From Hyphomicrobium sp. ghe19 (GTDB taxonomy: Bacteria; Pseudomonadota; Alphaproteobacteria; Rhizobiales; Hyphomicrobiaceae): a stretch of 64,000 nucleotides of DNA. Positions 19,557 through 24,953 of this stretch are shown in pieces. Location of the stretch: positions 3,548,001-3,612,000 of the forward strand of contig NZ_LR743509.1 in assembly GCF_902712875.1 (NCBI RefSeq), written 5' to 3'. The notes below the pieces were generated by a model. That model saw only the letters and a program-made list of their open reading frames with translations. It was not told the DNA's origin and did not search any database. Each line of letters opens with the position of its first letter. Position 1 is the stretch's first letter. The position numbers were made by a program, and so were the translations under genes.

Positions 19557-19705
19557 AGTTCACAATCGATCAGATCTCACCGGGAGGGTCAGTCTGAAAT
19601 TCCGGAAAGCGGGCCGGAACGGAATCTCCATTGGCGCTGTTGGGCACATTGCACGATAGCAACGGTATAACGGAGAGTTCGACCTTCTCCGACTTGGAGG
19701 CGCGT

Positions 19706-21853: not shown

Positions 21854-22150
21854 CCAAACGCGCCAGATCACTATGAAGCTTTACGGACCCTCGGCCGCGC
21901 AAAGCGGAAAAGGCAGCCGGGCCGTACATAGGCGCGATGTTAACGCTAGGTCGGAGACGACGCGCCTGCTGCATCCATGAGCACACTCCCTGGTATCGCC
22001 TGGCCCTGGTATCGCCTAGCGCGCAACGGATGTTCTCAGCCTCGCAACCGATTGCCGGGGATGTGCGTTGCAATGCTGGCTACATAGCGAGGATGGCAGC
22101 GTCAGCTCGGGGGCCATCCATTCACGCGACAACTTGGAAATCAGGCGGCA

Positions 22151-23227
22151 ATGACAGTCATGGACAAGCCATCCCCGTCGTTAGAACTGCCCACGCACGG
22201 GGCCGCCACTTTGCCCAGCGTGACGGTCGACAGTTACAATATCGAAGTGCGCGATGACGACGGGTTCGTCGGCGACAAAGCGAGCAAAGGCGCATTTTGG
22301 GAGATCGTCGAGAAATGGCGTAAGGCCCTGCGGAAGGCCGGCGAAGACCCGTTCGGAAAAACGGCCACGGAAGAGCTGTCGAAGAAGCAGCTGGTCGAAG
22401 AACTGGAAAAGGGTGATCCGGAAGCTGCCGGCCTCGTCCAAAGTGCGGTCGAAGAATTCTCTCAGCAGTTCGCCCATGTCATCCGGCGGTTTCTTCGGAC
22501 CAAAGAATGGCGAGATACCGAAGCAATCGTCATTGGTGGCGGGTTTCGCGGCAGCCGGCTGGGAGAGCTTGTGGCGGGCCGGACGGGGCTGCTTCTCAAG
22601 GCCGAGAAAATCAATGTCGACCTTGAAATGATTCACAACGATCCCGATGATGCCGGTCTTATCGGCGCGGCCCACTTGCTGCCGCCCTGGATGCTCAAGG
22701 GACACGATACGATGCTTGCCGTCGATATCGGCGGCACCAACATACGCGTCGGCACGGTCGAATTGAACATCGGGAAATCACGCGACCTCGTTAAAGCCAA
22801 AGTGGCGAACTCAGAGATCTGGTGTCATGCGAAGGACGAGACCGACCGGTCGGGCGCGGTCGCCCGATTGGTGAAGATGCTCGAGGAGCAAATTCGCTGG
22901 AACGACAAAGAGAAGCTCGCGTTGGCGCCCGTTATCGGCATTGGCTGTCCAGGCATCATCCGTGAGGATGGCTCGATCGATCGCGGCGGCCAGAATCTTC
23001 CCGGCAATTGGGAAAGCAGCAGCTTCCATCTTCCCGGGAGCATCAAGGAAAAGATTGGCAAGATCGGCGGAGCTGAAGCGATGATCGTCATGCATAATGA
23101 CGCCGTCGTTCAGGGATTGAGCGAATTGCCCCATATGCAAGATCGGAAACATTGGGCTGTTCTGACGATCGGAACGGGTCTCGGCAATGCGCGGTTCACC
23201 AACCGCGACGTGAAGAAAGCAAAATAG
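22151..23227 (+). CDS. ROK-like sugar-kinase-fold protein with circularly permuted motif order
   Basis: This 358-aa protein contains all core ROK/actin-fold motifs, but in permuted order. The motifs normally at the C-terminus come first: a helical region (about residues 40-120), AIVIGGGFRGSRLGEL (125-140) and DDAGLIGAAHLLPP (166-179). The motifs normally at the N-terminus follow: phosphate-binding DIGGTNIRVG (192-201), GIGCPGII (263-270), catalytic-type HND (315-317) and TIGTGLGNARF (339-349). The ROK zinc-binding Cys cluster is absent. A kinase or sensor role is plausible because Asp317 sits in the catalytic position. The start has AGGCGG ahead of the ATG. It lies between katE and a radical SAM gene; pathway unknown. 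Confidence 0.85.
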   Translation: MTVMDKPSPSLELPTHGAATLPSVTVDSYNIEVRDDDGFVGDKASKGAFWEIVEKWRKALRKAGEDPFGKTATEELSKKQLVEELEKGDPEAAGLVQSAVEEFSQQFAHVIRRFLRTKEWRDTEAIVIGGGFRGSRLGELVAGRTGLLLKAEKINVDLEMIHNDPDDAGLIGAAHLLPPWMLKGHDTMLAVDIGGTNIRVGTVELNIGKSRDLVKAKVANSEIWCHAKDETDRSGAVARLVKMLEEQIRWNDKEKLALAPVIGIGCPGIIREDGSIDRGGQNLPGNWESSSFHLPGSIKEKIGKIGGAEAMIVMHNDAVVQGLSELPHMQDRKHWAVLTIGTGLGNARFTNRDVKKAK

Positions 23228-23306: not shown

Positions 23307-24953
23307 ATGGCCGATATTGTAATCGTCAATCCGCGCTTCAACACATCGTTCTGGGGCATGGAGAAATGTATGGGGCTGCTTGGCAAGCGAGCCAATCTCC
23401 CGGTCGCCTGCCTCCCCTTGCTCGCGGCGCTCGTTCCGAAGCACCATGACGTGACAATTATCGACGAGAACGTCGAAGACATCGACTTCGCTCGTCTCGG
23501 ACGGGCCGACATGGTGTGCGTCACGGGCATGACCGTCCAGGGAACCCGGATGCGGGAAATTCTACAGGAGGTTCGAGCGCGCGGTGCCTTCACTGTCGTT
23601 GGCGGCCCTATGGCCACCGTGGAGCCGGAAGAACTCGAGGATCTCGCTGATGTCATGTTCATCGGCGAAGCTGACCTTACCTGGCCGCTGTTCATCAAAG
23701 AGTGGGAAGCCGGCCGCCACGCATGCCGCTACGAGCAACACGATAAGACCGACATGACGACCTTGCCGCCGCCCCGGCTCGATCTCCTCAAATCACAATA
23801 CTACATGTTCGGAAGCATGCAGATCTCTCGTGGGTGCCCGTTCACCTGCGAGTTTTGCGACATCATCGTTACCTTTGGGCGAAAGCCGCGTTTGAAATCC
23901 ACTCAGCAGGTGCTGGCGGAACTCGACGCTTACTATCGCGAAGGCATCAAAATCGTCTTCGTCGTGGACGACAATTTGATCGGCAATAAGAAGGCCATCA
24001 AGCCGACATTGCGCGAGATCGCTAAATGGCAGGAAGACCATGCCTATGCGCTCACCCTCTTCACCGAAGCATCATTGGACCTTGCTGAAGACGACGAGTT
24101 GATGAGCCTTATGGGGCGGGCCGGTTTTCAAAGTGTATTCATTGGCATTGAAAGTCCTGACGAGGCGTCTCTCAAAGAAACAAAGAAACTTCAGAACGTG
24201 CGTGAAAGAGCGGGCACGCTCATTGAACGTGTCAAACGCATTCAAGACAGCGGGATTGACGTCTGGTGCGGGATGATCGTCGGATTTGATAACGACAAGC
24301 CGGCGGCTTTCGATGTTCTTCCGGGATTTCTAGCCGAAGCGCGAATCGCGAACGCCCTCATCGGTTTGCTACATGCGATTCCGACTACGCCGCTCTTCGA
24401 TCGCCTGAAATCCGCGGGCCGATTGAATGACGCCGCAGGCAGCGAGACTTTCGGCACCAACGTCATTCCACTCGGGATGTCGCCGGGCATGTTGCGCGAC
24501 GGTTTGGTCAGAGTGACGGAGAATTCCTATTCGGCGGACGCATACTTCCAGCGGCTCGATGCTCTGTTCGTCGACGGTGGCTTCAAATTCGCCGCGCACC
24601 GGCTCCCGTATTGGCAGAGCCATCGGTTGGCGTGGGCAAAAAGCTGTTTCGAGAATTACGTCATGTTCCTTGTGCTGGCGAGCCGTCTTGTTCGCCGCGT
24701 CGAGGACAGAAGCTTGGCGCGCCGTTATCGCACGCAGCTTTTCCGTGCCTTTCGCGCCCGCAAGTTTGAGCCTCAATTGCTCTTCACCTACGCGGTGAAA
24801 ACGGCGATGCACTATCATTACGATGCGATCGCGAAGAGCCTTTCGGCTTCAGCCGGCGGCCCGGTTCCCGGGGCCGTGCGCTCTTTTTCGCGCGCACGCT
24901 CGCGCGACACTTCCGATCGGGTTACGACAGTCGGCAATCGGGCGCTGCATTAG
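23307..24953 (+). CDS. B12-binding-domain radical SAM enzyme
   Basis: This 548-aa enzyme has an N-terminal cobalamin-binding-like Rossmann domain (about residues 1-140: IVIVNPRFNTS, VTIIDENVEDIDF, FTVVGGPMATVEPEE) and a radical SAM core with the CxxxCxxC cluster motif CPFTCEFC (about 175-182), then a C-terminal region like DUF4070. Family members include hopanoid methylases and other methyltransferases; the N-terminus here does not look like HpnP, so the substrate is open. The usual cobalamin DxHxxG motif is not seen, as in many class members. I choose the ATG at 23307, with GAGGG upstream. It follows the ROK-like gene by 79 bases and may be cotranscribed with it. Confidence 0.88.
   Translation: MADIVIVNPRFNTSFWGMEKCMGLLGKRANLPVACLPLLAALVPKHHDVTIIDENVEDIDFARLGRADMVCVTGMTVQGTRMREILQEVRARGAFTVVGGPMATVEPEELEDLADVMFIGEADLTWPLFIKEWEAGRHACRYEQHDKTDMTTLPPPRLDLLKSQYYMFGSMQISRGCPFTCEFCDIIVTFGRKPRLKSTQQVLAELDAYYREGIKIVFVVDDNLIGNKKAIKPTLREIAKWQEDHAYALTLFTEASLDLAEDDELMSLMGRAGFQSVFIGIESPDEASLKETKKLQNVRERAGTLIERVKRIQDSGIDVWCGMIVGFDNDKPAAFDVLPGFLAEARIANALIGLLHAIPTTPLFDRLKSAGRLNDAAGSETFGTNVIPLGMSPGMLRDGLVRVTENSYSADAYFQRLDALFVDGGFKFAAHRLPYWQSHRLAWAKSCFENYVMFLVLASRLVRRVEDRSLARRYRTQLFRAFRARKFEPQLLFTYAVKTAMHYHYDAIAKSLSASAGGPVPGAVRSFSRARSRDTSDRVTTVGNRALH

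Follow-up and report, generated by a model that had tools for sequence, protein, structure and literature searches.

We found that the gene at positions 22151–23227 of a 64,000-nucleotide stretch of the Hyphomicrobium sp. ghe19 genome (hereafter the window; feature coordinates refer to its forward strand) almost certainly encodes a circularly permuted ROK protein, one whose two parts follow each other in exchanged order. The gene is defined by its open reading frame of 358 residues, the starts of its homologues and its Pfam matches, and it likely begins at M4 (22160), since the majority of 36 aligned homologues begin there. The closest named loci, from H. facile DSM 1565 and a Hyphomicrobium metagenome-assembled genome, encode a protein 94–95% identical to that of the window. 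Ordinary ROK proteins carry their motifs in the order DIGGT - PG - ND - GTGxG - GGG - GAA, which the window protein does not follow: its motifs GGGFRGSR, DAGLIGAAHL, DIGGTNIRVG, GIGCPG, HND and GTGLG begin at residues 129, 167, 192, 263, 315 and 341, respectively, and an extra HND is found at residue 162. These positions confirm the order GGG - GAA - DIGGT - PG - HND - GTGLG given in an earlier, sequence-only reading of this DNA, as well as the loss of the zinc motif stated there: the pattern CxCGxxGCxE is absent, and C225 and C266 are the sole cysteines.

The profile comparisons show the same exchange. The window protein matches the ROK profile PF00480 at 37.8 bits (cut-off 22.9) in two stretches lying in exchanged order, the better one placing residues 66–177 on profile positions 190–291; in four homologues scanned in the same way, the best stretch was approximately 187–350 (306–471 in the longer P0074) on profile positions 2–144. 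As a single place in the six-frame translation of its own genome, the gene reaches only 18.9 bits. The sequence-only reading had allowed that the N-terminal GGG/GAA segment could align to a different family; it aligns instead to the C-terminal part of ROK. We then compared a profile of the permuted family with profiles built from 16 normal-order ROK proteins carrying the zinc motif (zinc-ROKs) and from 57 polyphosphate glucokinase (PPGK) sequences. In its native order, the family profile scored 45.2 against the zinc-ROKs for residues 187–345 on ROK positions 7–141, with a second piece of 44.2 for residues 72–179 on 204–304. When the chain was re-cut, the best score against the zinc-ROKs was 44–45 for cuts at 0–112 and 266–350, 52 at 126, 71 at 140–188, 60 at 196–224 and 55–59 at 238–252, and cuts at 180–188 gave a single alignment of 292–293 columns, from ROK profile position 7–8 to 302–304 of 330. 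The profile search with swapped halves, suggested by the sequence-only reading, thus succeeded against the zinc-ROKs but brought no gain in the Pfam score, in the PDB sequence match or in the polyphosphate glucokinase score. The gain is thus confined to the one comparison where both halves can be aligned. The Pfam result by itself counts against a permutation.

The predicted structure agrees. The AlphaFold2 model of the window protein (mean predicted local distance difference test, pLDDT, 93.7) is predicted to adopt the two-lobed actin-like ATPase fold, and its residues 186–352 match residues 1–144 of the ROK kinase 5nck, whereas, with the N-terminal half modelled on its own, residues 21–166 match 142–273 of the same chain in our re-alignment of the chains ranked by Foldseek. 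The chain order of the model is thus permuted and not normal, and, together with the complementary halves and the single re-cut alignment, this upholds the circular permutation proposed from the sequence. A Foldseek search with the full model gave no good whole-length match (best template modelling score to the query 0.36 among the 50 listed), as expected because Foldseek aligns sequentially. Against solved structures, the family profile gave partial matches only (24 sequences at E ≤ 1, the best a hexokinase at E 0.0016), and no solved structure of the permuted family was found by single-sequence or family-profile searches of the PDB.

The models also indicate where the chain was opened. The sequence-only reading described two halves with swapped ends; the exchanged order stands, but the break, which separates strands 2 and 3 of the C-terminal lobe, lies within that lobe and is not a plain exchange of lobes. 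In the models, residues 24–176 (22220–22678) form strand 3 to the last helix of the C-terminal lobe, now N-terminal, and residues 334–351 (23150–23203) form strands 1 and 2 of the same lobe with GTGLG, now C-terminal, as their motif also indicates; by the strand pairing we infer, strand 24–29 would complete the sheet of strands 334–340 and 344–351. About 10 residues connect the former C-terminal helix with the former N-terminal DIGGT strand, a new junction placed by the profile re-cut and the model at residues 177–186 (22679–22708). The new chain ends are found in the strand 2–3 hairpin, next to the sugar loop. In ordinary ROKs, this hairpin leads into the loop with the ExxH sugar ligands. A short relative, P0121, begins one residue before His16 and ends at Arg352, 7 residues past GTGLG, and it was therefore in that hairpin that the chain was opened. 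The permuted set has 7–40 residues after GTGxG; for L001, a normal-order ROK of the same genome, 116 listed relatives have a median of 119.

The rearrangement is shared by the relatives of the window protein. Two protein searches gave at least 8,000 and at least 7,885 matches at E ≤ 1e-3, totals that overlap, may include ordinary ROKs and are no measure of family size. GGG precedes DxGGT in 232 of the 240 homologues listed and follows it in none, the pattern leaving 8 undecided, and the permuted order is found in 41 of 41 genome loci examined; the two sets overlap and both include the window protein. Given these counts, the permuted order is not the chance product of a single sequence. The two separate Pfam stretches, unimproved by re-cutting, could also be expected if two half proteins without a common origin had been fused, or from an assembly or gene-calling artefact; the halves, however, complement each other within one family, which together they cover once, and the identical order in all 41 loci, from many genomes, rules out an assembly artefact or a fusion of unrelated pieces, so that we give explanations without a permutation practically no credence. 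Two fusion-like cases, the 1020-residue frame of L053 and the 480-residue listing P0074, were read as miscalls of the upstream frame or start, L053 having a promoter-like motif just before the usual start.

Matches to the family profile were found in 15 of the 22 genomes of the genus. In samples of the class and of the phylum, for which up to five candidates were scored in each genome, 16 of 385 and 22 of 398 genomes had matches, respectively. The carriers among the matches listed include Hyphomicrobium (Alphaproteobacteria), Pseudoxanthomonas, Luteimonas, Lysobacter and Stenotrophomonas; Pseudoxanthomonas daejeonensis was checked to be a gammaproteobacterium, and relatives are thus known from two or more proteobacterial classes. 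Three sampled genomes (G560, G576 and G800) hold two copies of the permuted gene. The second copy of G800 is much weaker (394 versus 652 bits) and the sole copies of G801 and G805 score similarly low, which suggests a divergent paralogue within the genus. A search for close normal-order relatives with the re-cut profile (398 genomes, E ≤ 1e-8, up to five candidates scored in each) found none: its 48 places, in 22 genomes, were all half matches of permuted genes. At this threshold the search reaches close relatives, and distant normal-order ancestors lie outside its range. We file the family as a permuted variant and not as an ordinary ROK member, because it is a ROK homologue that departs from the family in chain order and zinc motif. 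Sources naming such proteins use "ROK family protein", "glucokinase" or "sugar kinase", which hides the rearrangement.

The permuted family has kept the residues of the active site. D192, G194, G195, R199, P267, G268, Q281, N282, W287, H315, N316 and D317 do not vary in any of the 72 aligned homologues or the 41 loci, and the retention of Asp317, from which the sequence-only reading had suggested that catalysis may persist, thus extends to the whole set. DIGGT (192–196; 22724–22738), the phosphate-1 motif by sequence and structure match and the former N-terminus of the fold, has its T in 66 of the 72; GTGLG is kept in 72 of 72 homologues and in the 40 loci covered; and GGG (129–131; 22535–22543), the motif of the adenosine site in the C-terminal lobe of ROKs, is invariant among the aligned homologues. 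GIGCPG (263–268) lies at 22937–22954 and HND (315–317), with the presumed catalytic base Asp317, at 23093–23101. The segment QNLPGNW (281–287; 22991–23011), placed on the sugar side, has Q281, N282, L283, G285 and W287 in 72 of 72 homologues and P284 in 71, residue 286 not being counted. Following general knowledge of ROK kinases, we take Asp317 to be the base, DIGGT and GTGLG the phosphate sites and GGG the adenosine site. Because the ATP-site and catalytic residues are invariant, we regard an active sugar kinase as the likeliest reading and as probable: nucleotide binding would be kept via DIGGT, GTGLG and GGG, and Asp317 would act as base in the transfer of phosphate to a hydroxyl group of the sugar. 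His16 (22196–22198), near the new N-terminus and invariant in 72 of 72 homologues and the 40 loci covered, perhaps substitutes for the lost ExxH histidine. This equivalence is a guess, as one profile alignment places His16 near the PPGK sugar-loop histidine, whereas the second, with the zinc-ROKs, puts it at a distance of two residues from their histidine. A possible substrate is a hexose freed from trehalose or glycogen, likewise a guess.

The same fold could instead serve in the stress response as a pseudokinase that senses a sugar or nucleotide, the ROK repressors being a precedent for sensing without catalysis; the missing zinc motif and the uncertain ExxH position are consistent with this. 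The catalytic Asp and both phosphate motifs, apart from the T of DIGGT, are nevertheless invariant, which pure sensing does not need. Furthermore, neither the N-terminal helix-turn-helix of the Mlc/NagC-type repressors nor any other Pfam DNA-binding domain is found in the window protein at E ≤ 10, and the four homologues scanned gave one sub-threshold HTH_63 match (P0120, E 0.17). We regard a pseudokinase as unlikely, and an active kinase as the better account of the conservation.

Among known families, the ROK kinases (PF00480; N-acetylmannosamine kinases 5nck and 6q26; Streptomyces griseus glucokinase 3vgk) are those to which both halves align, and they share with the permuted family the fold, the phosphate-1 and phosphate-2 motifs, the adenosine GGG and the catalytic Asp. 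The permuted family differs from them in its exchanged chain order, in lacking the zinc motif and in having a new N-terminus in place of the ExxH loop. The two halves differ in their affinities: the DIGGT-to-GTGLG half scores 102 against the PPGK profile and 45 against the zinc-ROKs, and the other half 44 against the zinc-ROKs and 22 against PPGK. Of the two groups compared, the former half thus appears nearest to polyphosphate glucokinases and the latter to zinc-ROKs. The Hyphomicrobium polyphosphate glucokinases L001 and L002 resemble the permuted family in that no zinc motif is seen, but they have the normal order and approximately 268 residues, and their second half is poorly alignable to it. 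Against the polyphosphate glucokinase model NF045942 of NCBIfam (cut-off 250), the window protein scores 23.7 bits, and the normal-order L001 is likewise below the cut-off at 105.3. With a polyphosphate glucokinase as nearest ordinary relative, the donor could be polyphosphate, which would fit a stress protein; the affinity of the DIGGT half favors this, and the PPGMK structure 1woq is the best single-sequence PDB match, though not a significant one (E 0.081). However, the other half fits the zinc-ROKs better, the larger PPGK set (57 versus 16 sequences) can inflate its score, and the adenosine GGG motif is invariant, so that we think a polyphosphate-dependent kinase improbable. One further comparison system shares the DGGTNxR phosphate-1 motif and the overall fold but has normal order, a larger size and low identity. 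Our searches of the open-licence literature brought up no description of a permuted ROK or of this family; the CIRPIN preprint (PMC12667903) describes a permuted pair of ribonuclease H-like domains, which may or may not be related.

In Alphaproteobacteria, the permuted gene is likely under the control of EcfG. We searched the 250 bases upstream of the 41 loci, using random windows of the same loci as control. GGAAC-N15-18-CGTT was found exactly upstream of 8 loci (random mean 0.35, maximum 3 in 200 draws) and with at most one mismatch upstream of 29 (random mean 4.1, maximum 8 in 60 draws). With a spacing of 16–17 and at most one mismatch, sites precede 29 of the 36 alphaproteobacterial loci and 0 of the 5 others, compared with 8 of 36 on the opposite strand, and 200 shuffled motifs of this spacing gave a mean of 1.6 and a maximum of 8 loci. 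The sites mostly start 50–120 bases upstream of the residue-1 position; the outliers are at -25/-26 in L006–L008 and beyond -170 in L052, as its only site, and in L007, as its second. The EcfG-type promoter-like motif of the window gene, GCAAC-N17-CGTT at 22044–22069, is one mismatch from GGAAC-N16/17-CGTT and weak for a single gene. Because the loci are related, their effective number is smaller than the counts given. A genome-wide scan with the pattern says little, the own-genome count of GGAACN16-17CGTTG being in modest excess (35 versus 25 in the control).

The distribution of NepR, the anti-sigma factor of the general stress response, points the same way. The Hyphomicrobium sp. ghe19 genome has two, and NepR is present in 25 of 28 other alphaproteobacterial carriers, in 0 of 5 non-alphaproteobacterial carriers and in 30 of 190 genomes of a class sample. 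Within the latter, 7 of the 8 carriers have it, compared with 23 of the 182 genomes without the permuted gene (P value 9e-6, Fisher test ignoring kinship and genome size, and assuming that the 190 genomes are G000–G189, as their numbering suggests). The EcfG motif is given as GGAAC-N16-CGTT for R. etli (PMC3892343) and GGAAC-N17-20-GTT for Sphingomonas (PMC6599016), and the EcfG-dependent genes listed for Sphingomonas melonis include GCAAC forms (PMC6599016); the words ROK and glucokinase are absent from the main text of both. Most alphaproteobacterial copies examined are preceded by a promoter-like motif resembling that of the EcfG (PhyR-NepR) regulon, and in this class the permuted protein probably belongs to the general stress response governed by EcfG and PhyR-NepR. 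The five non-alphaproteobacterial copies (L060–L064), being without both the motif and a NepR match in their genomes, are presumably under other regulation.

Taken together, and leaving the sugar source aside, a permuted ROK that is an active sugar kinase and is EcfG-controlled in Alphaproteobacteria is the reading we favor on balance, our confidence in the whole being limited by the kinase step, its weakest. More tentatively, and with greater doubt than conviction, the family could represent a new and conserved line within the ROK/hexokinase superfamily, derived from one natural permutation at the sugar-binding hairpin. On this reading, since both chain ends flank the substrate pocket, the permutation itself may have altered the substrate, to an acceptor that is not a free hexose, or the donor, to polyphosphate, and provided the alphaproteobacterial general stress response with a dedicated kinase. 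A natural permutant of a two-lobed, hinge-closing enzyme is a clean natural experiment on the role of chain order in the folding, domain closure and specificity of actin-like ATPases. If the EcfG link is true, it would add an uncharacterised enzyme, with a testable role, to the alphaproteobacterial general stress response.

The permuted gene is flanked by a long catalase upstream and a B12-binding/radical SAM protein downstream. The sequence-only reading had named katE and a radical SAM enzyme as neighbours; both are present but are not conserved beyond the nearest Hyphomicrobium genomes. Clustering of the flanking open reading frames of the 41 loci gave no neighbour common to the whole family, the radical SAM gene being shared with L004 and L005 only, and a frame that, by reading of its sequence, resembles ribosomal protein L21 is common to 10 loci from a single related group. 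The catalase, of katE type, scores 925 bits against the NCBIfam HPII model, below the cut-off of 1102, and a one-mismatch EcfG-type motif, GGAAC-N17-TGTT (19616–19641), lies 65 bases before its likely ATG (19706). The radical SAM protein (23307–24953) begins 80 bases past the permuted gene, carries DUF4070 and matches no NCBIfam model at its cut-off. The hopanoid C-2 methylase HpnP, which is reportedly EcfG-controlled in Rhodopseudomonas, is one of the DUF4070 proteins. Elsewhere in the same genome lie the two normal-order polyphosphate-glucokinase-like ROKs, at 1435–2241 of locus L001 and 1195–2118 of locus L002, the former flanked by frames that, as read from their sequences, resemble a trehalose-phosphate synthase and a PfkB-type kinase.
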